Assembly (NCBI GenBank): GCA_021404565.1
Contig: JAAWWF010000040.1
Coordinates: 1 to 64,000 of the forward strand
Direction of reading: 5' to 3'
Origin: Roseivirga sp.
GTDB taxonomy: Bacteria; Bacteroidota; Bacteroidia; Cytophagales; Cyclobacteriaceae
DNA: 64,000 nucleotides
The translations under genes were made by a program, and so were the position numbers. The notes beneath the pieces are model-generated. The model was not told the origin of the DNA. It ran no database searches and was given only the letters and a program-made list of their open reading frames with translations. Positions 23,501 to 38,035 of this stretch are shown in pieces. Position 1 is the stretch's first letter. Each line of letters begins with the position of its first letter.

Positions 23501-26500
23501 TTCGTCCAGGCTTACCGTGATTTGTGTATCACTGTCCTTAGTCGCGCTCATCAGAGTTGGCGCTGTCATATCTATAGTATAGGTCTCCTCGCTGGAGATG
23601 GTGCCTGCGAAAAAGTTTCCAGCTACATCCCCCAATGAATGGAACACGAAAATATCCAGATTCAATTCTCCTTCCGTGTTGATATTACTGACCGTAACAT
23701 CAATTTCTGTGCTTAACTCCTGGGTGGACACAGCTGAAACTACAGCTGTCCCCCCACCGGCATCTCCTGAAAGTTCAAAGTCTTTGGTTCCGGCATTGGT
23801 TACCTCTTCAGAAAGCGTAACCCGGAACACCACACTATTGGCATTGGTTATCTCTGAATCCGGGCTATTTCTGGTGATACTCGTAATAGTCGGCTGGGTC
23901 AGATCTATCGTGTAAGTTTCTTCAGTACTGATGGTTCCGGCAAAAGCATTACCTCCAAAATCTGATATATCCTGTCCGGCATCAAAATCCAGGTCCAGCT
24001 CTCCTTCTGTATCAATGGTGCCGACCGTTACATCAAAAACAGTATTGGCAGTTTCGGTAGTGATACCGGTAATGGCAGCCGTCCCCCCTGCTCCGGCACC
24101 TGAAATACTGAAATCGGTGACATCGACATTATCAACCAGTTCAGAAAAAGTGACCCTGAAAATGACAGTTGATTTATTGGTTCTTTCAGCAGTCGGGTCT
24201 TGCCTTACAATACTGGATACTGTTGGAACTGTACTGTCCAGGTCAATGGTAATCCCTGTAGCATCAGTAGCCAAATCGTTACCTCCAAAATCACTGATTT
24301 CATTGTTGTTATTGGTATAAGTTACGGTCAGGTCTCCTACAGCACCACTCATGTCGTTCACTGTCAAAACAATGTCTGTGTCTTTGGCTGTATCATCTGC
24401 TTGAGCCGTGACGGTAAAAGCTGTGCCCTGTCCGTCTGTCATGGTAAAGTCAGTGGGATTGGTACCATTGGTTTGAACCGGTTCACTGAAGGTTACCGTG
24501 ATTTGCGTATCAGAGTCTTTAGTGGCTGCGGACAGTGTTGGGGCTGTGACATCTGTATCTATGGTAACTCCTGTGGCATCTGTTTCCGCAAAAGTTGCTC
24601 CTGAATCGTCATCACTGATTTCATTATTGTTATTGGTGTATGTTACCGTTAAATCCCCCACTGCAGAAGATAAATCGGCTACTGTGAGTACAATGTCAGT
24701 ATCTCCTGCTGTACCATCGGCTTGCCCCGTAACAGCAAAAGTGGTTCCGACACCGTCAGTCACTGTAAAGTCTGAGGGGTTACCACCGTTGGTCCGTACG
24801 TTTACATCATAGGTAACCGTAATCTGTGTATTGTTGTCCAGCACGGCAGACAACATTACCGGTAATAGCGGCAAATCTATGCCTGTAGCATCGGTGGCCA
24901 GGCTATTCCCTCCAAAATCAGTGATTTCGTTATTATTATTGGCATAAGTAATGGTTAATGGACCTGTTGCGCTGCTTAAATCAGCCACAGTTAATACAAT
25001 GTCCGTATCCAGGGCTGTACCATCAACCTGCGCGCTTACCACAAAGGGGCTGCTATTTGCATCTACAATCGTGAAATCCGTAGGATTGTTGCCATTGGTT
25101 TGAACTGGCTCGCTTAGGGTAAGCGTAATTTGAGTATCAGAGTCTAAAGAGGCACTCACCAGTGTAGGTGCCGAAGTATCAAGGTCTATAACCACCCCAG
25201 TGGCATTGGTTGCAAGTGCTGCACCACTTAAGATACTGTTGATCTCATCGTTGTTATTATTATAGGTTATGGTAAGATCTCCCACAGCCGTACTCATATC
25301 GGCTACTGTGAGTAATATATCAGTATCACCCCCAATCCCATCTGCCTGAGCGCTTACCATAAAGTTATTTGCCAGACCATCCGTTACGGCAAAGTCAGTG
25401 GGATTCCCCCCATTAGTCTGTACGGGTTCATTTAACGTTACCGTAATCTGAGTATCGGAGTCTTTAACAGCGCTGACCAAAGTAGGCGCACTTGACACTC
25501 CCTTCATCCAGAAGAATTCAGTCGGATTAAAGGAACTGAGCATCACATCCTTCACACCATCTCCATTCAAGTCTCCAAAATCAATGGTACCAAACTGTAC
25601 CACATCAATAATTCCCATGTCTCCTCCGAAACCATTTAACAATTGTCCTTTGACCTCATCATCCGAATCAACAAAATCAGGTGTAGTCGCGGTGCCAAAA
25701 TTTTCAATTACAGCTACCAAACCATCTTCTCTCACAAAATAGATATCAAAGTCTCCATCCTGATCAAAATCTTCTAACCTGGGAGTTGGAGCCAGAAAGG
25801 ACAAATCTTTCCACTTTGTTAAAGCCCTTCCTATTCCCTGATCGAAGGGGTTGTCCAGATCAAACTGCTGCTCAAAAACAGGAGCCATGAGTGTACCGGT
25901 ATTCTTAAAATATGAGAGAGAATCACTCCCCCCTGCAATCATATCTTTATCACCGTCATTATCAAGATCGGCAAAATCTACACCGGGAAAATTAGATTGG
26001 TTTACCAACAGGCCCGTTATATCAGCGAAAGTGAATTTAGGAACTGATGCAGAACCAGTGTTTTCCAAAAAGAAAAAATCCTGAATAAAATTGAACCCCT
26101 CGTAGTCATACCTTGGCATTACAAAAAGATCTAAATCCCCATCGTTATCAATATCTTCAAGGGCTGTTCTTGTTTCGTTAGCAACCTGACCAACAAAGTC
26201 CAGTGTGTCTAGCGTGGCAATTGATCTACGGCCGAAACGTGGTTCACTAACGGTACCAACATTTTCGTAGTAATGCACCCCTCCTACCCTATTACCTGAG
26301 ATAAAGTCGAGGTCACCATCGTTATCAAGATCGCCCAGAGAAACACTGCCATACCTGTTGCCAGCCCCGGCATCCGGAAACTGAAGCGTATCCAGGCCTG
26401 CCGAAACTACCTGGGTGGTAAACTTTCCATTGGCATCTCCACCGGTAGGACCTCCCTGGAAAACCCAGGTGATTTTTCCCGATAAAGGAGAGAATGAAGA

Positions 26501-27775
26501 TTGTCTGTCGATAGTAACCCCGGTGGCGTCTGTTGCCAATGCATTATTGCCAAAATCAGTGATTTCAGAATTGTTATCAGTGTAGGTGATGGTAATGTCG
26601 CCACCAGCATTACTCATATCAGCTACTGTCAGTACAATCTGATTATCCTGTACTGTACCATCCGCCTGGGCACTCACTACATAATCCGTTGCCAGCGCAT
26701 CCGTCACAGTAAAGTCTGTCGGGTTCCCTTCATTTGTCTGCACTGCCTCGCTAAATGTGAGCGTAATCTGTGTATCGCTGTCTAATGTGGCACTTACCAG
26801 CGTAGGCGCTGTGGCATCCAAATCTATGGTAACCCCCGTAGCATCGGTACTGGTTTTATCTACCCCGGTCAGGTCACTGATTTCATTATTGTTATTGGTA
26901 TAGGTTACCGTGAGGTCACCCACTGCTGCAGAAAGGTTTGCAACAGTCAGTACAATGTCTGTATCTCCTGCAGTGCCATCTGCCTGGGCACTCACGGAAT
27001 AAGTAGCTCCTACCCCATCTGTTACTGTGAAGTCGGTTGGGTTTCCGCCATTGGTCAATACATTATCATCATAGGTGACCGTGATTTGCGTATCAGAATC
27101 TTTGGTTGCACTCTGCATGGCCGGAGCTGCCGGTATCCAGGTAACCCTAAGGGAGGTAGAATCAGTGAATAGCTGACTGCAGTCTGTCAATGCTGAAGCA
27201 ATCGTCACGGATGTTCCATCTCCTGTATTGAAGGCTGTAGTTCCGGGCTGTAAATCAATAGCCGCATAAATCACCCCAGTATAGGTGGCCGTATACTCCA
27301 ATTCCGGCAGTTTTTCAGTTACACTTGCATCTTCATTAAAAGCGAGCACTGTACCTGTTAGTGTATTACTGGCTGTCGAGCCCGAGTTATCGTAGAGGGT
27401 AAGCATGGGGTCATGGTCCACTTCAGGACGAGCGAATGTAAAGTTGGGAGTAAGGCCATCAGGAAAACCATGAATAGATGAACCGAATTGATCTATCAGT
27501 CGCTGCTCAGAACCCACCAGCGAAAACTTATACTTATTGCCACTGATTACATTTACCCTTACATAATGCCCGGCCCAGGTTGCATTGGCATCTACCGGAG
27601 TATTCAAAGTGGCCGGAGTTAAACCTGCAACACCAGAAGCAATGTGCTGGAGTTGAAAGGTATTGGGTGAAGGGCATTGGGCAGTTACACTCCTGCCCAT
27701 ACCGAGCATCAAGCAAAGTATGAGCAGGGTTTTGGCAAAAATCGCTGGTCTGAAAAAAGAGAAGATTTTGGACAT
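17534..27775 (-). CDS. Giant SprB-like adhesin with type B T9SS sorting domain
   Basis: The frame reaches up to 27841 (3,435 aa). I prefer ATG at 27775 because it begins a good signal peptide (MSKIFSFFRPAIFAKTLLIL), giving about 3,413 residues. An N-terminal domain of about 180 residues precedes Ig-like units of about 98 residues marked by 'DSDTQIT.T..E.VQTNGGNPTDFTVTD'; eight copies are visible. A VCBS/FG-GAP module ('GDLDNDGDLDFISGN') at about 25500-26460 interrupts the array. Further Ig blocks ('APVIVSITDDTG...'), a large internal duplication and cadherin-like domains follow. The last ~85 residues are a gliding-motility C-terminal domain: 'RNIFSPNGDGVNETWVIEDL', then 'IPDGTYYYEINVYDGERIIKGFLTI'. 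That is a T9SS type B sorting signal, so the protein should be exported to or through the outer membrane. It is the first gene of an operon with the PorP/SprF-OmpA gene. A palindrome and a -7-like box lie about 170-220 bp upstream of the start. Confidence 0.93.
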   Translation of the reverse strand: MSKIFSFFRPAIFAKTLLILCLMLGMGRSVTAQCPSPNTFQLQHIASGVAGLTPATLNTPVDANATWAGHYVRVNVISGNKYKFSLVGSEQRLIDQFGSSIHGFPDGLTPNFTFARPEVDHDPMLTLYDNSGSTASNTLTGTVLAFNEDASVTEKLPELEYTATYTGVIYAAIDLQPGTTAFNTGDGTSVTIASALTDCSQLFTDSTSLRVTWIPAAPAMQSATKDSDTQITVTYDDNVLTNGGNPTDFTVTDGVGATYSVSAQADGTAGDTDIVLTVANLSAAVGDLTVTYTNNNNEISDLTGVDKTSTDATGVTIDLDATAPTLVSATLDSDTQITLTFSEAVQTNEGNPTDFTVTDALATDYVVSAQADGTVQDNQIVLTVADMSNAGGDITITYTDNNSEITDFGNNALATDATGVTIDRQSSFSPLSGKITWVFQGGPTGGDANGKFTTQVVSAGLDTLQFPDAGAGNRYGSVSLGDLDNDGDLDFISGNRVGGVHYYENVGTVSEPRFGRRSIATLDTLDFVGQVANETRTALEDIDNDGDLDLFVMPRYDYEGFNFIQDFFFLENTGSASVPKFTFADITGLLVNQSNFPGVDFADLDNDGDKDMIAGGSDSLSYFKNTGTLMAPVFEQQFDLDNPFDQGIGRALTKWKDLSFLAPTPRLEDFDQDGDFDIYFVREDGLVAVIENFGTATTPDFVDSDDEVKGQLLNGFGGDMGIIDVVQFGTIDFGDLNGDGVKDVMLSSFNPTEFFWMKGVSSAPTLVSAVKDSDTQITVTLNEPVQTNGGNPTDFAVTDGLANNFMVSAQADGIGGDTDILLTVADMSTAVGDLTITYNNNNDEINSILSGAALATNATGVVIDLDTSAPTLVSASLDSDTQITLTLSEPVQTNGNNPTDFTIVDANSSPFVVSAQVDGTALDTDIVLTVADLSSATGPLTITYANNNNEITDFGGNSLATDATGIDLPLLPVMLSAVLDNNTQITVTYDVNVRTNGGNPSDFTVTDGVGTTFAVTGQADGTAGDTDIVLTVADLSSAVGDLTVTYTNNNNEISDDDSGATFAETDATGVTIDTDVTAPTLSAATKDSDTQITVTFSEPVQTNGTNPTDFTMTDGQGTAFTVTAQADDTAKDTDIVLTVNDMSGAVGDLTVTYTNNNNEISDFGGNDLATDATGITIDLDSTVPTVSSIVRQDPTAERTNKSTVIFRVTFSELVDNVDVTDFSISGAGAGGTAAITGITTETANTVFDVTVGTIDTEGELDLDFDAGQDISDFGGNAFAGTISTEETYTIDLTQPTITSITRNSPDSEITNANSVVFRVTLSEEVTNAGTKDFELSGDAGGGTAVVSAVSTQELSTEIDVTVSNINTEGELNLDIFVFHSLGDVAGNFFAGTISSEETYTIDMTAPTLMSATKDSDTQITVSLDEVVQTNGTNPTDFTVTDGLGNSYAVSTQADGTADDADIVLTVADLSGAIGDLKVTYANNNGEISDLAGNDLDTDATGVSIDTDATSPTLVSGTRDSDTQLTITFSEAVQIIGDNPDDFTVQDANNTPFAVTQIADGTAQDDKIILTVADFSTATGPLTVIYQVDCSDISDFGGNALQDDLTGIEVALNPTVTAVSVPANDTYTAGEDLNFQVTFNPAVTITGTPQIPVTIGSSTVNATLSGTVTNATTATFTYTVQSGEEDTDGIEVGATIDLNGATIQDTNALDAILTLNNVASAEAVLVDAIAPAAPVIVSITDDTGSSDSDKITNDQTLVVKGTAEANSSVSLLVNGEGPFGGVTLTTDGDGNWEFDPVGEGTFTLDEGEHTYTATTEDAAGNVSEVSDDFVVTVDLTAPVAPTLDLVASTDLGISDSDDLTSGGTLTFEGTAEPGTSVLVGIPGLGPAGDAVTADIDGNWTLTVNDEIPSATYGFVAVSTDIAGNESESSTALDVEVDQDLAISTLSPADDETDVLPNANLTITFDKNVVKGTGNISIKQVSDDAVIETIDVTGSNVTVSGAEVTIDPVDNILPPDTEFYVNIDAGAFENEAGAAFSGISDKTTWSFTIIAASTVSSVSVPSDGMYKIGDDLDFTVNMVLPVTVTGTPTIPVTIGSQTVNASLVGTATDASALTFRYTVVEGDLDADGIAIGSAMDLNGGTMKDEFDVDAILGLNNVAATSGVLVDGVVPTAPVIVSITDDTGTSNSDQITNDQTLLVNGTAEANSTLSLLVDGVGPFGGITIIVDGDGNWEFDPVGEGTFTLDEGVHTYTATTTDAAGNVSEVSADFDVTVDLTAPAAPAVDLVASSDSGTSDTDDITNDITPTVQGVSEANAPIEILVDGSSVGNTTADDSGDWSFTITTDWADGVYDVTVKATDIAGNTSEAGSALSLTIDTTVPTNVFFPPIEEDDIINNSEKTDVVVTGGTSGVTDGLEVAIRFTDGVNTPIEITTAVMADVWATEEVDISSLADGAIQVTANVADAAGNNAETILADLVLDTTAPEAPVVSSITEDSGNVSDDELTNDQTLSFIGTAEANGSVEVFIDGTSIGTTTADGAGDWTYDHTGTTLADANYSITAKTTDEAGNLSPESMSLDITVDTTAPPAPVLDLVASTDLGISDSDNLTSGGTLIIQGTAEPGTSVLVGIPDLGPAGEAVTTDIDGNWSLTLDEEIPSGTYDFIAIATDLAGNESSESDALSITVDQDLAISTTSPTDGEIDVLPNANLTITFDKNVVKGTGNIQIIQSSNDAVQQTIDVAGSNVTVSGATVTIDPAANILPPDTEFYVNIDEGAFQNEAGAPFAGISDNATWSFTIIAASVVSSVDVPADGTYMIGDNLDFTVNMILPVSISGTATIPVTIGSTTVNATQVGTISNSNSILFRYTVVEDELDADGIVVGSTIDLNGGTMQDEFGVDAILTLNGVASTTAVLVDGVKPTPVITSTAVDLVNGTFSATITYNEAVENFTVADLTVTNGTAANLVNTVTGTTWTVDITPTADGTVTVTLPVATANDLAGNESNASNSISRDFDGTAPEVISVNRTDADPLTTGTTEASFRVTFSEEVTGVDLTDLEVVLTASATGVLNSITPVDGSTYDVNINGIGGQGTIGLNVKDDDTIIDAATNPLSAAFTGQVYTTNFIPTDIGLSVSAIDENNNLTEVLAAISTTDADAGDSHTYTLVAGTGDTDNASFTIDGTNLRANSISFNFEDRDNYSLRLRTDDGKGGIYEEAFTCTINDVNEVPSMLSLSNISIDEDDNAQDVGMLATLDQDGGETFTYSLVSGTGDTDNAEFEINGNTLRTAGLINFEDGASRSILVRVTDSGGLTLDQQFTINIGEVVIEPLREYEANIPGGAVRNIFSPNGDGVNETWVIEDLLDNPVNEVKVYAQGGKLIFSQVNYQNDWDGTFKGDPIPDGTYYYEINVYDGERIIKGFLTIIRNR
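19035..22260 (-). repeat. Large internal duplication in the second adhesin (two ~1-kb copies)
   Basis: Copies lie at about 21240-22260 and 19035-20030. Both run from 'LDLVASTDLGISDSD' through 'TFDKNVVKGTGNI', 'ILPPDTEFYVNID' and 'DLDFTVNM' to 'VLVDGV'. The base match TTACATTGCT at 19561 and 21790 gives an offset of 2,229 bp, exactly 743 codons. This indicates an in-frame duplication that has since drifted moderately. Confidence 0.8.
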
Positions 27776-27948
27776 AGCTTGTATGCCCGCATCCCTTTGT
27801 GGGTAAAATGGTTCCATATACACTTCTGATGTTTGGTTCAAACAGGCTCAAAAGAGCCTCTTATCAGGAAGTGAGTCACTGGCTATATGACTAAATCATT
27901 GAGGAGCGATACACTTCAGGATAAAATATGTGTATCACTTGGTTGACT

Positions 27949-27996
27949 CAAAACTATGAACTAAAGCAGCGGCAGTAAATAGACCTTAAGGTCTAT
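27949..27996 (-). promoter_or_regulatory. Candidate promoter and 18-bp operator of the adhesin-SprF operon
   Basis: On the minus strand TAGTTTTG (27956-27949) fits the Bacteroidota -7 consensus TAnnTTTG. The perfect palindrome ATAGACCTTAAGGTCTAT lies at 27979-27996, centred about 35 bp upstream of that box, roughly -42 from an expected start. No -33 TTTG element is seen, which would fit an activator-dependent promoter. The adhesin start is about 170 bp downstream of the -7 box. Confidence 0.55.
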
Positions 27997-28219
27997 ATTT
28001 CCGAAAACACAGCCTGAGTTAAGCAGTAAGTAGTTTTGAGAATATTTTCAGTAAACAAATATGTTAAATCAACATTTTTCCCTTCTTTAAATACAAAATG
28101 ATTTACTCATTCTGTAGAGACTTTGCTGAGAAGGCCAAACATTCCATTTGATACCATAAAGCCAGGGGGTGAGAGAATACCCCATGATCGCGGTATAACT
28201 AACTCTCCCGGCCAGGCCC

Positions 28220-28237
28220 ATAGACCTTAAGGTCTAT
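28220..28237. promoter_or_regulatory. 18-bp palindrome upstream of the VCBS/ASPIC lipoprotein gene
   Basis: A second perfect copy of ATAGACCTTAAGGTCTAT, 241 bp centre to centre from the first. It ends 73 bp before the start codon at 28311. No good -7 box is seen at the spacing used by the other two copies. The intergenic region 27776-28310 contains nothing else that I recognise. Confidence 0.55.
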
Positions 28238-28310
28238 TTTTATTTCGGAGCAGTTCATTTTATCCAAATAATCACATATTGCGGGATCACTAAGCACAAT
28301 TTTCCTGTAT

Positions 28311-31300
28311 ATGCGTTTTCAGGCTTTTTTTTCAACTTGTTTGGTCCTTCTCTTTGTTGTTTTACTATTTGGTTGCGACAAGTCTGTGCAGGAAGGTTCT
28401 ATAGAACAACCCCCTCTTTTTAGCCTGACCGACCCTGACAGTACGGGGCTTTACTTTATCAATGAGGTGACGGAAAGCCCCCAACTCAACATTCTCACCT
28501 ATGAATACCTCTACAATGGCAGTGGCGTAGCGCTGGGCGATGTGAATAAGGATGGTTTGCTGGATGTATTTATGGGTGGTAACCTCTTTGGCGGACGGTT
28601 ATTCCTGAATAAAGGGGATTTGAAATTTGAACAGATCTCCGAAACTGCCGGAGTTTTTGTAGGTGGATGGAGTACCGGGGTCAGTATGGTGGATATCAAT
28701 GAAGATGGCTACGATGATATTTACATTTGCCGTTCGCTGACAAGTGATATTGACCTGAGAAGAAATGTGCTGCTGATTAACAATCAGGACAATACCTTCA
28801 CAGACTGGGCAGCCGAATACGGGCTTGATGACCCAAGCTTTTCTCACTACGCGAGTTTTTTCGACTATGACCGGGATGGGGACCTGGATATGTATCTGCT
28901 CAACCATCGGATTGACTTCAAAGAGGCATTGAAATTGAAATACACTACCAATGAGGCTGGTAAAGAGGTAAAATACACGGAAACTGACGTACAGTATGTA
29001 ACGGACAAGCTCTACCGTAATAATGGCAATGGCAGCTTTACTGATGTGACCGAAAAAGCAGGTCTGATCAACAGGGCTTTCGGACTCAGCGTAACCACTG
29101 CTGACATCAACCGGGATGGCTGGGCAGATATTTATGTGGCCAACGATTACGCTGACAAGGACCACATCTACCTCAACAATGGAGATGGTACATTCACCGA
29201 TAAAGTAGATGAGATGCTCTTTCATATGAGCAAAAACTCAATGGGCTCGGACATAGCTGATTTTAACAATGACGGTCTGCCGGATATCATCAGCCTGGAT
29301 ATGATGGCCGAAGACAATGAGAGACAGAAGCTGCTAAAGGGCCAGGAACCGTATGACCTCTACCATGCAGCCGTAGACTATGGCCTGGGGCACCAGGTGA
29401 TGCGCAATACGCTGCAACTTAATAATGGTAATGGTACTTTCAGTGAAATCGGTCAGCTGGCAGGCATCTCTCATACCGACTGGAGCTGGTCTCCCCTAAT
29501 CGCAGATTTTGACAATGACGGATACAAAGACCTTTTTATCACCAATGGTCTGTACCGTGACCTGACGGATATGGATTACCGAAACTATACATCGCCCCAG
29601 GCGATCAACCGCTTTGCAGGTGATGTGGCAGGACACAGCCTGGAATTGACACAATTGATGCCTTCTAACCCGGTTCCCAATTACATTTATCAGAATCAGG
29701 GAAACCTTACCTTCACCAATAAATCAAAGACCTGGGGCCTGGATCAGGCAGCCTTTTCAAATGGTGCCGTTTATGCCGACCTGGATTTGGATGGAGACCT
29801 GGACCTTATTACCAACAACTTTAACAGCGAGGCCTTTCTCTACCGGAATAACGCCCGCGAGCAGGCTACCGCCAATGCATTCCTGACAGTCAAGCTTAGG
29901 GGTAGCTCCGCCAATCCTGATGGCATAGGAGCCAAAATCACCCTGACTACTGATGAGGGTATCCAATATCAGGCAGTCTCCCCCTACCGGGGCTTTGCAA
30001 GTAGCGGTGACGCGGTAGCCCACTTCGGGCTCGGTAGCCAGGTTTCAGAAGTTTCATTGCAGATAGAGTGGCCTGATGGAAGGCATGAACAGATGAACAA
30101 TGTAGCCATCAACCAAACAATAGAGGTTTTTATAGATGATGCTGTGGAAAAAGAGTCAAAGGACCGAGGCAATACCACTACACTGCTAAAGCAAGTCAGC
30201 AATGCCCTGACGAGTGATTTTGAGCATAAAGAAGATGATTTTATCGACTTTAAACGTGAGCCTTTGCTGGAACATATGATCTCAAACAAAGGTCCCTTTG
30301 CCACCAAGGGAGATGTAGACGGTGATGGTTTGGAAGATATCTACCTGGGTGGCTCGGCAGGCTTGGCCGGGCAGTTGTACTTACAGCAGGCCAATGGTGG
30401 CTTTGCCCTGGGATCACAACCTGATTTTGAGACAGATGCTGGTTTTGAAGATGCACAGGCCGTCTTCTTTGATATAGAGGGAGATGGTGATCAGGACCTG
30501 TTTGTGAGTAGCGGAAGCTATGCCTTTGCTGCAGGTTCCGGCAAATATCAAAACCGCCTTTACCTCAACGATGGCCAGGGCAATTTCAACCGATCAGGTA
30601 CTGCTTTGCCAGATTTCAGGGAAAACAGTACCGCTGTAGTGGCTGATGATTTTGATAAGGATGGTGATCCCGATTTGTTTATTGCCGGGGGTACTCTACC
30701 CGGGAGTTATCCCTTTTCAGCCAGGAGTCAGCTCTTGCTCAATGATGGAGCGAAATTCTCGGATGCTACAGCGCTACTGCCTGACAATGCCCAACTGGGA
30801 ATGATCAATGATGTTCTGCTGGCAGATATAGACGGAGACGGTACCAATGAGCTGATTATAGCCGGTGAATGGATGCCTCTGAAAGTTATGAAGTGGGATG
30901 GGTCTGGTTTCGGGATGATGGATATTCCGGGCTTTGAAAACAGTTCTGGCTGGTGGAATGTGCTTACAGCTGCCGATATGGACAATGATGGTGACCTGGA
31001 CATAATTGCCGGGAACCGGGGAGAAAACTCATTCTACAAGACTTCCGCTGAAAAACCGGCTACACTATATGCTAAAGACTTTGACAGTAACAGCCAGGTA
31101 GATGCTTTTCCTTTTTACTACTTCAGCGATGGTAAGAGCCACCCGAAGCACATTCTGGATGAAGTAGCTAAACAGTATCCTGCTATTCGAAGGAAATTCA
31201 CACGATATGCGCCCTATGCTAAGGCTGCGGTCAACGATATATTCTCTTCCGGAGACCTGAACGGAGCTTTACAACTCAAGGCAGAAACCTTTGGCTCTAC

Positions 31301-31646
31301 CTGGTTTGAGAATCAGGAAAATGGTAGTTTCAAAGCCCATACATTAGCCACTCAGGCACAGTTTTCAGAAGTGCATGGTATACTCCCCATAGACCTGAAT
31401 AAGGATGGCTATCTGGATCTGATACTCACAGGCAATAACTATGGTGCAGACGTGGAGGCCGGTCAAAATGATGCTAGTATTGGCACCGTACTTTTGGGCA
31501 ATGGCCGGGGAGAATTCTCATTTCTTCCGGTAACTGAAAGCGGTTTTTCCATCCCAGGAGATACAAGAGGTATCATTCAGATCGGAGACCTCCTCCTGGT
31601 AATGGTTAATGGTGGTAAGCCATATGGGTTTGAAGTCAGAAAATGA
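28311..31646 (+). CDS. Large VCBS-repeat lipoprotein with ASPIC/UnbV domain
   Basis: This 1,111-residue protein has a lipoprotein signal (LLFGC, Cys22). Residues about 55-500 hold VCBS/FG-GAP repeats with calcium-loop motifs such as 'DVNKDGLLDVF', 'DINEDGYDDIY', 'DYDRDGDLDMY' and 'DLDLDGDLDLI'. An ASPIC/UnbV domain follows at about 524-608 ('NPDGIGAKITL', 'HFGLGSQ..VSLQIEWPDG'). A second VCBS block occupies about 655-1000 ('DVDGDGLEDIYLGG', 'DIDGDGTNELIIAG'), and another loop lies near the C terminus. The architecture resembles the CRTAC-like proteins abundant in Bacteroidota. These are thought to sit on the outer membrane and bind calcium and glycans or proteins; exact function is unknown. 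It is divergent from the second adhesin, with two shared palindromes between them. A strong hairpin follows the stop codon. Confidence 0.92.
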   Translation: MRFQAFFSTCLVLLFVVLLFGCDKSVQEGSIEQPPLFSLTDPDSTGLYFINEVTESPQLNILTYEYLYNGSGVALGDVNKDGLLDVFMGGNLFGGRLFLNKGDLKFEQISETAGVFVGGWSTGVSMVDINEDGYDDIYICRSLTSDIDLRRNVLLINNQDNTFTDWAAEYGLDDPSFSHYASFFDYDRDGDLDMYLLNHRIDFKEALKLKYTTNEAGKEVKYTETDVQYVTDKLYRNNGNGSFTDVTEKAGLINRAFGLSVTTADINRDGWADIYVANDYADKDHIYLNNGDGTFTDKVDEMLFHMSKNSMGSDIADFNNDGLPDIISLDMMAEDNERQKLLKGQEPYDLYHAAVDYGLGHQVMRNTLQLNNGNGTFSEIGQLAGISHTDWSWSPLIADFDNDGYKDLFITNGLYRDLTDMDYRNYTSPQAINRFAGDVAGHSLELTQLMPSNPVPNYIYQNQGNLTFTNKSKTWGLDQAAFSNGAVYADLDLDGDLDLITNNFNSEAFLYRNNAREQATANAFLTVKLRGSSANPDGIGAKITLTTDEGIQYQAVSPYRGFASSGDAVAHFGLGSQVSEVSLQIEWPDGRHEQMNNVAINQTIEVFIDDAVEKESKDRGNTTTLLKQVSNALTSDFEHKEDDFIDFKREPLLEHMISNKGPFATKGDVDGDGLEDIYLGGSAGLAGQLYLQQANGGFALGSQPDFETDAGFEDAQAVFFDIEGDGDQDLFVSSGSYAFAAGSGKYQNRLYLNDGQGNFNRSGTALPDFRENSTAVVADDFDKDGDPDLFIAGGTLPGSYPFSARSQLLLNDGAKFSDATALLPDNAQLGMINDVLLADIDGDGTNELIIAGEWMPLKVMKWDGSGFGMMDIPGFENSSGWWNVLTAADMDNDGDLDIIAGNRGENSFYKTSAEKPATLYAKDFDSNSQVDAFPFYYFSDGKSHPKHILDEVAKQYPAIRRKFTRYAPYAKAAVNDIFSSGDLNGALQLKAETFGSTWFENQENGSFKAHTLATQAQFSEVHGILPIDLNKDGYLDLILTGNNYGADVEAGQNDASIGTVLLGNGRGEFSFLPVTESGFSIPGDTRGIIQIGDLLLVMVNGGKPYGFEVRK

Positions 31647-31678
31647 ACGACTAACCTGTTTGAGGTTCCGGTAAAACA

Positions 31679-31703
31679 AAAGCCACCCCATATGGGTGGC
31701 TTT
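31679..31703. terminator. Hairpin terminator between convergent genes
   Basis: A perfect 10-bp stem, AAAGCCACCC / GGGTGGCTTT, with loop CATAT. It lies 33 bp after the lipoprotein stop and downstream of the minus-strand response-regulator genes. Flanking A and T runs make it usable from both sides. The rest of 31704-31953 holds nothing I recognise. Confidence 0.75.
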
Positions 31704-31953
31704 GTAAACTGGCTATTTAAACCCGGATAATACAATGGACTTTCTATTACAACCGTAACTAGCTTCAGATCAGTCGTTTACTCTGCCTTTGGCAGACAGA
31801 CTTCGTTTATCTTTTCACCATAGCCCTGCTATGTCCTCAAAGCTAAACTTCCTGATTTATTGCTATTTACGGTCTCATAACGATTTCCATTCTACTATCC
31901 GGGTTATACCTCAACCAAATAACCATCAACAAATTTCTTTTCAGGCAACCAGC

Positions 31954-32568
31954 TCAAAAAGAGAGCTTTTGCTGATTGCGTAGCACCCAGTTGAGGAGTG
32001 AGTGTGTGGTAGCCGGTAGTTTTAATTTTTTACAAATGTTATGTCGGTGATTCTTCACCGTGCTTTCACTTACATTGAGGGCCATGGCCATCTCCCTGGT
32101 AGATGACTCTTCGAATATCTTTCTCAGGATTACTTTCTCCATAGAAGTAAAAGCCGGCATTTCTTCATCCTTGACAACGATTCCTCCTTTTTTGAACCAA
32201 TTGTGATTGCTGAGAGCAAGATCCACCGTGATGCGGATATCATCTTTTTCAAAAGGCTTTACCAAAAAAGCATAAGGCATTGTCGCCTTGGCCAATTCCA
32301 GGGTTTTATGGTCGGCATGACTGGTGAGGTAAATAAAGGGGGTATCGGCATGATTACGGATATAATTAGCCACTTCAATCCCCTGGTTCTTACCATTGAG
32401 CTGCACATCGAGTATGACCAGATCAGGCTCTTCTTTGATAAAAGTACGTACGGCCCCTTTATAATCGATAGCAGGTTCCATCACTTCATAATCCAGTTGC
32501 TTTAGTACATGACAAAGGAGCTTTCTAGACATATTATCATCTTCTACAACCAAGATTCGCTTCTTCAT
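31954..32568 (-). CDS. Response regulator, receiver plus LuxR-type HTH
   Basis: About 204 residues from ATG at 32568 (MKKRILVVED). An upstream in-frame ATG at 32595 overlaps the preceding gene; the chosen start lies one base after that gene's TGA. The receiver has the acidic pair 'VEDD', the phospho-acceptor in 'LVILDVQLNG' and the lysine in 'FLVKPFE'. The C-terminal LuxR/NarL HTH reads 'STREMAMALNVSESTVKNHR', and the helix 'LPATTHSLLNWVL' follows. It is closely similar to the regulator at 33473-34087, so a paralogous pair. It is probably the DNA-binding output for one or more of the kinases at 34094-40002. Confidence 0.92.
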   Translation of the reverse strand: MKKRILVVEDDNMSRKLLCHVLKQLDYEVMEPAIDYKGAVRTFIKEEPDLVILDVQLNGKNQGIEVANYIRNHADTPFIYLTSHADHKTLELAKATMPYAFLVKPFEKDDIRITVDLALSNHNWFKKGGIVVKDEEMPAFTSMEKVILRKIFEESSTREMAMALNVSESTVKNHRHNICKKLKLPATTHSLLNWVLRNQQKLSF

Positions 32569-32569
32569 C

Positions 32570-32974
32570 TCAGCAATCATAAAGTTTAGGCCCAACTGTC
32601 CTTTGATTCAATTCGCTCTCAAAAACCTTATCTAAAACCGCTTTTAGCTCAGCAATAGTGAAGGGTTTAGTCAGATAGGCGCTGGGATTAGTTTCCACTG
32701 CCTTTTCCATAAGGCCTTCCCCGGTTTGAGCGGTGAGGAAGAGGAAAGGCACAGTTCCATGAGTCCGAATGTAATGGGCCATATCTATACCCGTTTTCTC
32801 ACCTTTTAACTGAACATCAAGGGTTACCAGGTCCGGACTATGCCGATCAAAGAGTTGAAGGGCCTCATCATAGCTCCGGGCTTCAGGCAATGCCCGGTAC
32901 CCGAGCAATTCCACAATCTGCCTTAGATTGTCGGCAATCATCTTGTCATCTTCAACTATCAGAATCTTCTTCAT
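32570..32974 (-). CDS. Stand-alone receiver-domain protein (CheY-like)
   Basis: A 134-residue protein consisting of one receiver domain. 'ILIVEDDKMI' supplies the acidic pair, 'LVTLDVQLKG' the phospho-acceptor Asp, 'FLFLTAQ' the conserved Thr and 'AYLTKPF' the Lys. There is no output domain. It lies immediately upstream of the receiver-LuxR gene and overlaps the preceding small frame by ATGA, so translation is probably coupled. It may be a phosphate sink or relay competing with the two full-length regulators for the nearby kinases (inference). Confidence 0.9.
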   Translation of the reverse strand: MKKILIVEDDKMIADNLRQIVELLGYRALPEARSYDEALQLFDRHSPDLVTLDVQLKGEKTGIDMAHYIRTHGTVPFLFLTAQTGEGLMEKAVETNPSAYLTKPFTIAELKAVLDKVFESELNQRTVGPKLYDC

Positions 32975-33159
32975 GGATACTTACAGGAAAAGGTGATGGA
33001 AGCGATGCCTTCAGATGAAATATCAAATTTCAGTATACAGTCTACTGCATATTTGATACAGGCATGAATGCCAATATGGTTCTTAGTGGTCCTCAGCGTG
33101 TGAATAGGTAGTGGTGTTAAGTATACCAAATCAACTATAATGCGTCTGATATGACTCAT
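32971..33159 (-). CDS. Small hypothetical frame upstream of the receiver gene
   Basis: A 62-residue frame whose TGA overlaps the ATG of the receiver gene (ATGA), as expected of a real coupled gene or leader. No family is recognised. The second half ('IHACIKYAVDCILKFDIS...') vaguely follows the N-box region of the neighbouring kinases ('NSYKHALL...LELTIGL'). It could therefore be a remnant of a fourth kinase, but the match is too weak to claim. It lies downstream of the third palindrome and its -7-like box. Confidence 0.35.
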   Translation of the reverse strand: MSHIRRIIVDLVYLTPLPIHTLRTTKNHIGIHACIKYAVDCILKFDISSEGIASITFSCKYP

Positions 33160-33286
33160 TTCTTATCACCTGCTCTACGTTGATAAAGTCAGCCGTAGCG
33201 ATGCTATGCCTTCCTTTCCCGCCTTGATCAAATGATAACAATTTGAGTCCTATCTTAGTCACATTACAATTGAACTGGTATGGACG

Positions 33287-33334
33287 TAAAGCTATACTGA
33301 CTTTTGGTACCAGTAAATAGACCTTAAGGTCTAT
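33287..33334 (-). promoter_or_regulatory. Candidate promoter and 18-bp operator of the response-regulator genes
   Basis: Third perfect copy of ATAGACCTTAAGGTCTAT at 33317-33334. It shares six further flanking bases, CAGTAA, with copy 1. The minus strand has TAGCTTTA at 33294-33287, one base off TAnnTTTG, starting exactly 30 bp from the palindrome as in copy 1. Transcription would run into 33159-31954. The remainder of 33160-33472 shows no gene. Confidence 0.5.
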
Positions 33335-33472: not shown

Positions 33473-34087
33473 TCAGGAGTTGATCACCTTTTTGTTTCTG
33501 AGTACCCAGTTGAGCAGTGAATGTGTGGTGGCCGGTAAATTCAGCTTGACACAGATGTTGTGGCGGTGGTTTTTGATGGTGCTCTCGCTCACGTGCATCA
33601 ACTCAGCTATCTTCTTAGTGGTCAGATTTTCGGCAATATTGCGGAGTACCGCTTTTTCCGTAGTGGTAAACTCGGGTGCGGGCTCTTCTTCCATGTCCCC
33701 GTTATTATTGATATAGCGTGCGTGATTATTGAAGGCAATTTCCAGTGTGGTAAGTACATCTGCAGGCTCAAAAGGCTTTACCAGGTAAGCATAAGGCATG
33801 GTTACCTTGGCCAACTCCAGGGTGCGTGTGTCGGAAAATGAGGTGAGGTAAATAAAAGGTGTATTGGAGTTTTTGCGAATGTGATTTGCCACATCCATGC
33901 CCGTCTTTTTTCCTCCCAGATTAATGTCGAGAATTACCATATCCACGGGTTCTTCATCAAAACTCGTAATGGCTTCTCTGTAGGTAAGCGCAGGCTCCAG
34001 TGTTTCATACCCCAGCTTGTTCAGTGTATTACACAGATCATCGGCAATGATCACTTCATCTTCAACTACCAGTATTCTCTTTTTCAT
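33473..34087 (-). CDS. Response regulator, receiver plus LuxR-type HTH
   Basis: 204 residues, starting MKKRILVVEDE 6 bp after the stop of the first kinase gene, so probably the last gene of the kinase operon. The receiver has 'VEDE', the phospho-acceptor in 'MVILDINLGG', 'YLTSFSD' and 'YLVKPFE'. The LuxR-type HTH reads 'TTKKIAELMHVSESTIKNHR', followed by 'LNLPATTHSLLNWVLRN'. Its recognition helix is nearly the same as that of the regulator at 31954-32568, so the two may bind the same sites. Confidence 0.93.
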   Translation of the reverse strand: MKKRILVVEDEVIIADDLCNTLNKLGYETLEPALTYREAITSFDEEPVDMVILDINLGGKKTGMDVANHIRKNSNTPFIYLTSFSDTRTLELAKVTMPYAYLVKPFEPADVLTTLEIAFNNHARYINNNGDMEEEPAPEFTTTEKAVLRNIAENLTTKKIAELMHVSESTIKNHRHNICVKLNLPATTHSLLNWVLRNKKVINS

Positions 34088-34093
34088 ATTCCT

Positions 34094-36085
34094 TTATTCA
34101 ATCAGTTTGCTGCGTGCCTCTTCATTGGCAAAATTAATGGTAAACCTGTTTCCCTGATCATAATTGTAGTCAAGCTTGCCCTGTAGCTGTTTGGCAAGCC
34201 GTGAAGCCAGTCTTAACCCAAAACCTTTCTTGATTACTTCGGCAAATGGCTCTTTAATGGCCTCTCCATTATCCTTATACACCAGGTTGAACATCCCTGC
34301 CCCTAAGGCCTCCAAACCCACGGTAAGCTCCAGCTTTCTTTGTAAAAGTAATGCATGCTTGTAAGAATTGGTTACCAGTTCGTTGAGTATCAGCCCTAGA
34401 GAAATTGAAGTATCAATATCGAAGATGGTATTACTCTCAAACTCAAGCTGCAGTTTATACGGAACCCTATCCACTTGTATCGCATCCAGCTTGTTTATCA
34501 GCTCTTCGGTATATTCTTTAAAATCGATGGTGGCAATATCATCAGTGCGGTACAGAAACTGATGGATCATAGACATGGCCACTACCCTGCTGCGGCTGTC
34601 TTCTATGGCTTTGGCAGGATCTTCCGTGCTACTCCACTCCTGCTGCATATTCAGCAGACTGGAAACTAACTGCAGGTTGTTTTTTACCCGATGGTGCACT
34701 TCTTTAAAGAGTGTTTCAATACGCTCATTACGCTCCTGCAATTCCAGTTTCTGCTGGTTTACCTTGGCAGTTCTGTCCACTACCTCCTGCTCAATTTTTC
34801 GCGTTTGATCTGCCTGCACCTGATTGAGCCGTGTCAAAGCCTTATTCTTATCTACCTCATGCTGCCGCATTTCTATGCCCAGGGCAATGGTAAACAAAAG
34901 TGTTTCCAGTAGTGTAACCGTAGAACTCATAAGAGAGGCAGCCTCCCGGGCTATGGCCTGAAACACCCAGAAATAGCCTACCACGACTACACCTACCGCA
35001 TAGATCACCAAACCTGTAGCAAAAACCTTCTTACCCAGATTGAGTTTTCTGAAAACGCTGATAACAAAAGCAATGTAAATAACATTAGTGATAATGGCCG
35101 TGACCGAACCTATGAGGGTAGAAAGCCCAAAGGCTTCATTCGCCACTGTTACATAATACATGTAAGCAAACCTGACCAGGTACATCACGATCAGCCCCTG
35201 AAAGACCCGATACCACCTGATATATTTCTTTTTCACCTCCAGGAATGAAAGCAGTAGCATAAGCATACAAAACTTGCCAAACTGTCCGATAGGCGGTGTA
35301 AAGGTCTTACTGAACTTAGGGTACTCAGGGAAGAGCCAGTCTGTATGATAACCATTTACAGCGAAAGTGTAAGCCGCAAAACCAAGTACCATCAATGAGA
35401 GCCATAAATAAGGTCTGTAACGATGCACCACGTACAATACCAGTGCATAGAGTATGAGTATGGAAAGTGCCCCGAGCAAAACGAAATCAGAGGTGGTTTT
35501 TGTTCTTTGATCAGCATAAAACCGGGTTGTCCCTTTGAGCCTGACCAGCAGTTTAGGTCCACGATCACGGGTATTTTGTATCCTGACATAAACGTCTTCC
35601 CTGGCATTGGCATCAAGCCGGAAGAACAGGTGGTACCGGCTCTCTGTTTTCTCCATTTCGCTTCCCTTCAGGTATTCACCTGATCTGCCGCTGAAAAGCA
35701 GGCTATCTTCCCTAACGAGGTGCAGTGATGCATTGCTCATTCTGGAGTGAAACCAGGCAATGTCTATGTCTTCATCACTAGTATTAGTCAGGGTAAATTT
35801 CATCCAATAGATGCCTTTTTTGTTACCCCGGGTAAACTGCTCAGAAAAAGGTTGAAGCCTCACCATATCATCAACCGTCATCGTGGCCGATGAATCTTCA
35901 AAAGCCAGCAGTTGTTGCCCCACAAAGAGACTGATATCAAAATCAGCATCGCTTACTTCTATGACTTCCTGTGCATCAACCCCGCAAGGCAACACCAAAA
36001 AGCAACCAAGCACAAGCAGGGCCGATATCCTCGATTTTAAGGTACCGAGCACCGTATTTTGTAAGTTATTTAAGGAAAAAATCAT
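34094..36085 (-). CDS. 7TMR-DISM sensor histidine kinase (HisKA_2 type), copy 3 of 3
   Basis: 663 residues. A signal-like N terminus is followed by a 7TMR-DISM extracellular domain (about 40-190, 'GIYWMKFTLTNTSDEDID'), seven membrane segments (about 195-410), a coiled coil, and a transmitter with 'LFKEVHHRVKNNLQL'. The phospho-acceptor His is in the HHR at 464-466. The ATPase domain has its N-box at 'LGLILNELVTNSYKHA', then 'YKDNGE' and 'KKGFGLRLASRL'. HisKA_2/HATPase kinases of this kind pair with LuxR-type or stand-alone receivers, as found just downstream. It is last of three tandem paralogues. The transmitter is almost identical to the other two while the sensor differs. Confidence 0.93.
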   Translation of the reverse strand: MIFSLNNLQNTVLGTLKSRISALLVLGCFLVLPCGVDAQEVIEVSDADFDISLFVGQQLLAFEDSSATMTVDDMVRLQPFSEQFTRGNKKGIYWMKFTLTNTSDEDIDIAWFHSRMSNASLHLVREDSLLFSGRSGEYLKGSEMEKTESRYHLFFRLDANAREDVYVRIQNTRDRGPKLLVRLKGTTRFYADQRTKTTSDFVLLGALSILILYALVLYVVHRYRPYLWLSLMVLGFAAYTFAVNGYHTDWLFPEYPKFSKTFTPPIGQFGKFCMLMLLLSFLEVKKKYIRWYRVFQGLIVMYLVRFAYMYYVTVANEAFGLSTLIGSVTAIITNVIYIAFVISVFRKLNLGKKVFATGLVIYAVGVVVVGYFWVFQAIAREAASLMSSTVTLLETLLFTIALGIEMRQHEVDKNKALTRLNQVQADQTRKIEQEVVDRTAKVNQQKLELQERNERIETLFKEVHHRVKNNLQLVSSLLNMQQEWSSTEDPAKAIEDSRSRVVAMSMIHQFLYRTDDIATIDFKEYTEELINKLDAIQVDRVPYKLQLEFESNTIFDIDTSISLGLILNELVTNSYKHALLLQRKLELTVGLEALGAGMFNLVYKDNGEAIKEPFAEVIKKGFGLRLASRLAKQLQGKLDYNYDQGNRFTINFANEEARSKLIE

Positions 36086-36094
36086 TGTCTTTAT

Positions 36095-38035
36095 TTACTC
36101 CGATAACGCTATTCTGGCCTCTTCGTCAGCAAAGCTGATGGTAAAGAGATTGCCGTTGTCATATCTGTATTCCATTTTGCCTTGCAATTGTTTGGCCAGA
36201 CGAGATGCCATTCTTAACCCAAAGCCCTTCTTGATAACTTCAGCAAAGGGTTCCTTAATAGCTTCTCCATTGTCTTTGTATTGCAGATTAAATATGCCCT
36301 CGCCTATGGCTTCCAACCCGATGGTCAACTCCAGCTTTCTTTGCGAAAGCAGCGCATGCTTGTAGGAATTGGTTACCAACTCGTTCAGTATCAATCCCAG
36401 GGATATAGACGTATCGATATCGAAGGTTCTGTTACTTTCGAATTTGAGCTGTAGCTTATAGGGGACCCTTTGTACCTGAATGGCATCGAGCTTATTGACC
36501 AGCTCTTCTGCATATTCTTTAAAATCGATGGTGGCAATATCATCAGTGCGGTACAGAAATTGGTGGATCATAGACATGGCCACTACCCTGCTGCGGCTGT
36601 CTTCTATGGCTTTTGCCGGATCTTCCGTGCTGCTCCATTCCTGCTGCATATTCAGCAGACTGGAAATGAGCTGTAGGTTATTTTTTACGCGGTGATGCAC
36701 TTCTCTGAAAAGCGTTTCTATACGTTCGTTTCTATTCTCAAGCTGAAGCTTCTGCTGGTTAATCTCAGTCGTGCGGTCTATTACTTCCTGCTCTATCTTC
36801 TTATTCTGGCCTTTGAGCGTGGCGTTCAGTTCATCAAGAGCTATATTTTTATCTACTTCATGCTGTCGCATCTGAATCCCCAGGGCGATGGCGAAAATCA
36901 GAATCTGACCGAGCGGAGCTATGGCACTAACAGCTGTCGCTGTAGTGCGTCCCAGCTCATCGATAAGAAACCATGAGATTACTGCAAAAACCACGGCACT
37001 GATAAAAAACAAAATGCCATACCCGAAGACCCGCTGGGTTCGGTTAAGATGCTTCCAGATTACTAAAACCATCGCTACCAATAGCAGCACAGTCAGTAAC
37101 AGAAAAAAGAGACTGATCAGGGTCGATAGCACAAATCTTCCATACCCGGCAATCATGATGACGCTGGTTATCATTTGGGTTACAGACAGACCAACCAGTA
37201 CGACCAGTATTCTATGCCATTTCCGGAAGTGTTTGCCAGTTTCCAGAAAGTTCATGACCAACATAAGCAGAGCACTGACTCCCAGCATGGCCCAGGGGGT
37301 GGCAACTCCGATAACAGGGTTTTCAGGAAAAAACCAGTTGACCAGATAATCGCGTGCAGTAAAGCTGTACATCATAAGCCCCAGCGAGTGTAGTGCCAGC
37401 CAGAAATATGGTAAATGACGGTGAATGATCAGCAAGGCAATGGCATAGATCATCATCACCAGGAGGGCACCAAACATCAGAAAGTCGCGCGTATGCCTGC
37501 TCTCCTTTTCCTGGTGCCAACCTGCGGTATCTACAAAGCGTACGCTGAAGTCAGGCAAATAATCGGTTTCATTAGTAAAGCGCATATAGAATTCCTGCTG
37601 TTCTCCAACAGGTAGTGTCAATCCGATATGGTTGTGATCGTCACCAGGGTGCATCTGGCTGAGGGGGCGGCCTCCTCCTGATTTTGCATGGAATCTTTCC
37701 CCCTTTGGTCCAAACTGCCAGAGGTCAATCAACGAGGTACGGTCAAACTCCAAAACTGCTACCAGATCAAAGGCAGTCCTGTTCACCGCCCTGAAACGAA
37801 TCCAGTAAACTCCTGCAGCTTCTTCGGTTCCGGTAAACTCTCTTGGGAGGCCCTTTTGCTTCCTTATCTCAGATATGGTCAACCTGGTTGTCAAATCTTC
37901 AAAGATACTCAGTGAGTCACCCGGACTTATCGTAATATCAAACCGGGGCTGACCTATCTGTACAACGGTCTGAGCTCTCGCGTAGGACACCGAAAGAATG
38001 GACAACAAGTATAATATCAGGTGCGTTCTACTCAT
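36095..38035 (-). CDS. 7TMR-DISM sensor histidine kinase (HisKA_2 type), copy 2 of 3
   Basis: 646 residues with signal peptide, 7TMR-DISM extracellular domain ('GVYWIRFRAVNRTAFDLVA'), seven membrane helices, coiled coil ('ALDELNATLKGQNKKIEQEV') and HisKA_2 transmitter. The histidines are near 447-448 in 'EVHHRVKNNLQL'. The ATPase N-box and glycine-rich motifs are intact. It starts 2 bp after the upstream kinase gene and is followed 9 bp later by the next, so the three are co-transcribed. The ligand is unknown; DISM domains in other bacteria often sense carbohydrates or small molecules. Confidence 0.93.
   Translation of the reverse strand: MSRTHLILYLLSILSVSYARAQTVVQIGQPRFDITISPGDSLSIFEDLTTRLTISEIRKQKGLPREFTGTEEAAGVYWIRFRAVNRTAFDLVAVLEFDRTSLIDLWQFGPKGERFHAKSGGGRPLSQMHPGDDHNHIGLTLPVGEQQEFYMRFTNETDYLPDFSVRFVDTAGWHQEKESRHTRDFLMFGALLVMMIYAIALLIIHRHLPYFWLALHSLGLMMYSFTARDYLVNWFFPENPVIGVATPWAMLGVSALLMLVMNFLETGKHFRKWHRILVVLVGLSVTQMITSVIMIAGYGRFVLSTLISLFFLLLTVLLLVAMVLVIWKHLNRTQRVFGYGILFFISAVVFAVISWFLIDELGRTTATAVSAIAPLGQILIFAIALGIQMRQHEVDKNIALDELNATLKGQNKKIEQEVIDRTTEINQQKLQLENRNERIETLFREVHHRVKNNLQLISSLLNMQQEWSSTEDPAKAIEDSRSRVVAMSMIHQFLYRTDDIATIDFKEYAEELVNKLDAIQVQRVPYKLQLKFESNRTFDIDTSISLGLILNELVTNSYKHALLSQRKLELTIGLEAIGEGIFNLQYKDNGEAIKEPFAEVIKKGFGLRMASRLAKQLQGKMEYRYDNGNLFTISFADEEARIALSE

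Follow-up and report, generated by a model that had tools for sequence, protein, structure and literature searches.

An 18-bp palindrome, ATAGACCTTAAGGTCTAT, recurs in three exact copies (27979-27996, 28220-28237 and 33317-33334) in a stretch of 64,000 nucleotides from Roseivirga sp. (GenBank contig JAAWWF010000040.1; the whole stretch is referred to as the window), and probably serves as operator for a small regulon with a two-component system dedicated to it. In the proposed mechanism, adjacent membrane-bound HisKA_2 histidine kinases would, upon a presumed signal, phosphorylate LuxR-A (33473) and/or LuxR-B (31954), both regulators of the NarL/FixJ class, which would then occupy the dyad ATAGACC-TTAA-GGTCTAT in dimeric form, immediately before a sigma-A type -7 box. 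The bound regulator would recruit RNA polymerase from a class II position (centre ~-43.5), with the operator edge TTTAC in place of the TTG that is usual near -33. The targets would be a giant adhesin operon linked to the type IX secretion system (T9SS), the receiver/LuxR-B genes (feedback), and a second giant adhesin gene on another contig (C69). The relevant features are the following (ORF, open reading frame).

15892..17529, minus strand: gene for a PorP/SprF-OmpA protein, directly downstream of the adhesin gene
17534..27817, minus strand: giant adhesin, first target gene, with Big_13/Big_5/Big_12 Ig-like repeats and the type IX secretion signal CHU_C; either 27817 or 27775 may be its start codon
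27949..27956, minus strand: -7 box TAGTTTTG of the adhesin promoter, 22 bp past the 18-mer; predicted start site ~27944
27979..27996, minus strand: copy 1, putative operator of the giant adhesin operon, predicted centre ~-43.5
33287..33294, minus strand: -7 box TAGCTTTA of the receiver/LuxR-B promoter; predicted start site ~33282
33317..33334, minus strand: copy 3, putative operator ahead of the small ORF, receiver and LuxR-B genes

The sequence-only reading of this DNA had reported three exact palindromes, all intergenic and absent from the rest of the 64 kb, and this holds for the 18-mer up to 3 mismatches; 100 dinucleotide shuffles of the window gave no match (largest count 0). The whole assembly (G000, 8.57 Mb) contains one additional exact copy (C69:129769-129786), which brings the total to 4, all located outside ORFs of at least 100 aa. 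Copies with 1 or 2 mismatches are absent from it (0), and at 3 mismatches the 18-mer and a reversed control pattern each gave 7 matches. The outcome that was expected to speak against a control element, namely many copies scattered without relation to promoters as for a repeat of the repetitive extragenic palindromic (REP) type, was looked for in this genome and is not what these four intergenic copies represent. Among 39 genomes (own included), 37 lack the 18-mer; the sibling genome G009 (Roseivirga sp. UBA6061, Cytophagales) carries 2 exact copies and a third, 16-bp version. A scan of a wide contig collection returned 7 stretches with the 18-mer, 2 of UBA6061 and 5 of unrelated phyla, with ~4 expected by chance. 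Searches against Rfam (window and C69 locus) and for tRNAs (window) gave 0 matches.

Copy 1, copy 3 and the C69 copy are each followed, in the direction of the gene and at exactly 22 bp, by a Bacteroidota -7 box of the form TAGnTTTR. A TTG is usual near -33; here the operator edge TTTAC occupies that place. According to PMC9723704, the -7 box TAnnTTTG sits at -12 to -5. As the box lies 22 bp past the 18-mer, the palindrome is predicted to span about -52 to -35, with its centre at ~-43.5, the position of a class II activator. Copies 1 and 3 would each form one half of an asymmetric promoter, which faces the adhesin operon in the first case and the receiver/LuxR-B genes in the second. The constant N20 spacing agrees with the class II arrangement (an operator at fixed distance that overlaps the upstream promoter element, centred near -42), the start site itself being a prediction.

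The spacing was determined in 10 loci, 4 of which were picked for the palindrome and 6 for the regulator. The pattern GGTCTATTT-N(k)-TAnnTTTR gave 20 hits at k=20 and 0 at every other k in the range 10-31. Of the 29 half-sites in these loci, 20 fit strictly, 3 are near fits and 6 have no box (window 5276, 12657, 28231 and 33328; L010 11255; L061 19176). The regulator locus of G015 (L065) was left out of this set, and has no GGTCTATTT half-site in it. Altogether we gathered 26 composite sites in 10 genomes, 23 with a strict box and 3 with an imperfect one. All 26 aim at the next ORF on their own strand, and 24 lie outside ORFs (at least 95 aa, any start codon), with the other two (L064, L066) overlapping the ends of receiver ORFs. 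In the left half, AGACC is exact in 17/26 sites and its CC is present in 26/26. We do not use this base conservation as support, because sites derived from the search have the right half by construction.

Six promoter regions that were compared have the motif as their common stretch (21-53 bp) and otherwise only 11-bp matches. Between the adhesin promoters of G000 and G009, the dyad with its edges is identical at 26/27 positions and the -7 box at 7/8, against 106/208 for the rest. Searching our genome for half-site plus box with up to 3 mismatches returned 3 promoters at 0 mismatches and 8 matches at 3; since the reversed control gave 22, we claim no further members of the regulon in this genome.

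Two arrangements of composite promoters were seen in relatives. In L060 (13396 and 13571) and L061 (7899 and 7725), the interval from LuxR-B to a GH3-family gene contains two consecutive promoters; no small ORF with clear conservation was seen in the space that separates them, and the first could make a small RNA. In L060 (12223), L061 (9031), L062 (9788) and L066 (10976), the predicted transcription start precedes the receiver ORF's first ATG by 1 nt, which would fit a leaderless transcript or a true start codon located further in.

The candidate regulators and the presumed partner kinases lie around copy 3:

31954..32568, minus strand: LuxR-B, receiver and LuxR-type helix-turn-helix (HTH); start taken from the alignment with the G009 orthologue (90% identical)
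32570..32974, minus strand: single-domain receiver protein (Pfam Response_reg)
32971..33159, minus strand: 62-aa ORF overlapping the receiver start via ATGA; may not be coding
33473..34087, minus strand: LuxR-A, receiver and LuxR-type HTH (Pfam Response_reg, GerE); proposed binder of the palindrome
34094..36085, minus strand: 7TMR-DISM HisKA_2 histidine kinase
36095..38035, minus strand: 7TMR-DISM HisKA_2 histidine kinase
38038..40002, minus strand: 7TMR-DISM HisKA_2 histidine kinase

LuxR-A and LuxR-B both score above the Pfam cut-offs for Response_reg and GerE, which places them in the NarL/FixJ class; their N-terminus is a receiver domain and not the autoinducer-binding domain of quorum-sensing LuxR proteins. 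Solved structural relatives include NarL (1a04). G009 has orthologues with 95% identity to LuxR-A and 90% to LuxR-B, and the 16-bp version of the palindrome lies between these two. The regulators have the helix [SN]T[VI]KNHRH[NR]I in common (one G171 regulator has NT), and 4 other LuxR-type regulators caught by the motif script have a different helix; the KNHRH form was caught only in site-bearing genomes and in G015. A HisKA_2 kinase adjoins the regulator in 12/12 regulator loci examined, and a 7TMR-DISM sensor part is found in 11/19 kinases tested. The first part of the 62-aa ORF is 65% conserved over 37 aa in G009 and then diverges, which leaves a leader peptide, a remnant or chance as possible explanations.

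LuxR-A relatives with 58-95% identity are found in 8 other members of the genus. A palindrome scan that made no use of the motif, covering 8 regulator stretches (7 of these and that of G009), found TAGACC-type dyads in 5/8; strict composite sites are present in 6 of the 8 loci, near ones in that of G012 and none in that of G015. For counts across genomes we accepted sites with at most 1 mismatch and regulators at E <=1e-45; sites were restricted in this way because the full composite at 3 mismatches is at noise level across 59 genomes. Among 295 genomes of the family, 9 have both site and regulator, 1 the regulator only, 1 the site only and 284 neither (Fisher 2.4e-15, uncorrected for kinship). 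A LuxR-A orthologue thus accompanies the site in 9/10 site-bearing genomes, and the site is present in 9/10 regulator-bearing genomes. The genome with the regulator only is G012, where two sites are present at 2 and 3 mismatches; in the genome with the site only (G135), the match lies inside an ORF. Within the genus, 7/8 genomes with the regulator have the site, versus 0/9 without, and in genus g22 these numbers are 2/2 and 0/4. In an order-wide sample of 390 genomes (E <=1e-45) the regulator was found in 4, all of the same genus as the window; the two regulator-bearing g22 genomes are not among these matches and were evidently not drawn into the sample.

The sequence-only reading had also proposed that LuxR-type regulators act on the palindrome, with autoregulation. 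Co-occurrence and position agree with such a role for the regulators, and their binding to the dyad is a prediction. Of the autoregulation, the part that stands is that copy 3 faces the receiver and LuxR-B genes (32974-31954); the predicted feedback would miss LuxR-A (33473-34087) and the kinases, because both lie on the other side of that copy. That reading thus picked out a genuine control element and was for the most part correct about what it is; its circuit is partly supported.

The window adhesin combines a CHU_C signal with an adjacent PorP/SprF protein, as for a T9SS type B adhesin with an SprF-like partner. A second giant gene (L005, start 9571), which is on the opposite strand, begins ~207 bp downstream of the centre of the C69 copy; its product of at least 3190 aa contains FG-GAP and Ig-like repeats and ends in the type IX sorting domain Por_Secre_tail rather than CHU_C. 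In our genome, the sites thus precede the adhesin and PorP/SprF-OmpA genes, the receiver/LuxR-B genes and this second giant. In G009 the palindrome lies between the orthologous VCBS gene and adhesin, and another copy before a second giant gene on contig C54; giant genes are targets in G007 as well. The notion that the palindrome marks control regions is supported, and it recurs before adhesins elsewhere in the genome and in relatives. In G171, one target is a 320-aa collar-domain protein, after which comes a laminin-G protein (at least 1473 aa), and another is a cadherin-like protein (at least 1090 aa); in G235 the target is a protein of at least 1275 aa. Sites on contigs other than that of the regulator (G000 C69, G009 C54, G171 C83) precede giant or large secreted proteins. 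Beside the C69 adhesin (L005 11635-18949) we noticed, by eye, a TPR-type kinase next to a LytTR-like regulator, as well as a PAS-type kinase accompanied by a LuxR-type regulator that has the differing recognition helix RTVEAHKRNL.

Several points weigh against an operator controlled by LuxR-A and/or LuxR-B. The -7 box is imperfect in 3/26 sites and the left half is exact in just 17/26, and the site table was partly collected with the pattern itself, which inflates base conservation. G015 has a regulator orthologue with the KNHRH helix and no site was found in it, its contig ending inside the kinase adjoining the regulator. In G004, G006, G014, G012 and G018 the genes behind the sites are those of receivers, LuxR-B or a GH3-family protein, and no adhesin is seen downstream of them within the stretches read. 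Most sites are linked to the regulator locus, so their presence and absence partly reflects one inherited locus; sites on the other contigs, together with the unrelated flanks, argue for a common factor. As the genomes are drafts, sites on separate contigs may still be close to the regulator. Activation is preferred to repression on the grounds of position, and copy 2 does not fit the promoter scheme.

The dyad could also be an operator bound by a different transcription factor encoded elsewhere, with the LuxR-type regulators as fellow targets. We regard this as unlikely. The receiver and LuxR-B genes do lie downstream of sites themselves, binding by the regulators is deduced, and the genome has many receiver-type relatives (51 matches); however, presence and absence of the site tracks LuxR-A in two genera, the KNHRH helix is confined to site-bearing genomes and to G015, whose contig breaks at the relevant place, and the length and position of the dyad suit LuxR-type dimers (compare the lux box). 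That the right half with TTTAC is instead an upstream element of an alternative sigma factor, the palindrome being incidental, seems very unlikely to us. The right half GGTCTATTT does keep a fixed distance to the -7 box and the usual -33 TTG is missing, but the box retains the sigma-A form TAnnTTTR in 23/26 sites, the left half is also held (CC in all sites, AGACC in most), the right half is partly fixed by the way the sites were gathered, and a sigma element needs no 18-bp dyad.

A role of the palindrome in RNA, as terminator, attenuator or leader hairpin, is highly improbable. It folds into a hairpin (-7.8 to -14.1 kcal/mol in 7 stretches, z -1.2 to -3.3), and copy 2 is followed by a T run and was flagged as terminator-like; yet in the 26 sites the dyad lies upstream of the -7 box and hence outside that transcript, TTTAC adjoins copies 1, 3 and C69 on the side of the gene, and the fixed spacing to the box would go unexplained. 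We see hardly any chance that the palindrome belongs to a mobile or REP-like repeat family or that promoters are inverted by recombination at it: although the copies are exact and two of them lie 241 bp apart in one intergenic region where G009 has one, a repeat would not account for the occurrence of only 4 copies in 8.57 Mb, all intergenic, with a fixed orientation to genes and unrelated flanks.

An operator bound by the NarL/FixJ-class regulators resembles known systems in part. Lux-box type promoters carry a 20-bp dyad centred near -42.5 from the start site (PMC4471428), so that the class II promoters of the proteobacterial LuxR family are alike in dyad length, position and LuxR-type HTH. 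The regulators described here differ in having a phosphorylation receiver domain instead of an autoinducer-binding domain, and the promoter in using the Bacteroidota -7 box. The dyad sequence also differs from the lux box. With NarL/FixJ-class regulators of local regulons the system shares the receiver and GerE HTH, and a kinase-regulator cluster with a feedback site. PorXY-SigP is likewise a case of two-component control of T9SS-related genes in Bacteroidota, although that pathway (PMC4800418) concerns secretion-machine genes via an extracytoplasmic function (ECF) sigma factor, whereas here individual cargo adhesins would be controlled through an operator beside a sigma-A type -7 box. Among the literature matches listed, we located no described counterpart for the operator, the helix signature and the target set. 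The finding would thus be a regulon that is new but belongs to a known type; its prediction is unusually precise, with binding and the direction of control as presumed elements. To our knowledge, little is understood of how Bacteroidota time the building of giant type IX adhesins; in this system the sequence suffices to name a regulator, its probable operator down to the base, the geometry of the promoter and a regulon of three promoters. The operator and its regulator are also a candidate pair from which inducible promoters for Bacteroidota could be built.

More tentatively, the system may form a self-contained promoter-regulator cassette for surface display, composed of kinases, KNHRH-type regulators and one strict operator kept over two genera, with the cargo exchanged; we consider this a real possibility, short of a favoured conclusion. 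The promoter would serve interchangeable giant or large secreted proteins, whether encoded next to the regulator or at a distance; in one genus these are Ig-repeat giants, in the other cadherin-like, laminin-G or collar-domain proteins. The non-orthologous giants of the first genus align in their repeat regions (units of ~210 aa) and not in their N-termini, as judged from the top two alignments per pair. The targets at G171 C83 and G235 C27 are 36% identical to each other and have no match to these giants at E <=1e-3. Both loci (L123 and L125) have similar neighbour genes, judged by first residues, and related targets; the regulator-kinase pair is present at G235 C27 and absent at G171 C83. 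The G171 site nevertheless stays before its target. Control of the signalling genes by feedback may be the older core of the system, to which surface proteins would have been added as cargo.

The remaining copy in the window and its neighbour are as follows:

28220..28237, no strand assigned: copy 2, identical 18-mer; centre ~82 bp ahead of the VCBS/ASPIC start, where the conserved spacing yields no -7 box
28311..31646, plus strand: FG-GAP/ASPIC (VCBS-like) lipoprotein gene adjoining copy 2; candidate target only

The palindromes had been proposed to control both the adhesin operon and the VCBS lipoprotein gene. The former agrees with the promoter geometry of copy 1; for the latter, copy 2 lacks a -7 box at the conserved spacing, whichever way it is read. 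Copy 2 is also without a counterpart in G009, whose single dyad in this region aligns with copy 1. That dyad lies 89 bp ahead of the VCBS start of G009, and given the similar distance in both genomes a role for the VCBS gene is possible. Copies 1 and 2 are 241 bp, or ~23 helical turns, apart, and DNA looping between them is conceivable. Finally, between LuxR-B and the VCBS gene (31720-31905) there is an imperfect inverted repeat with 54-nt arms that are 70% complementary, adjoined by a terminator-like hairpin at 31679-31703.

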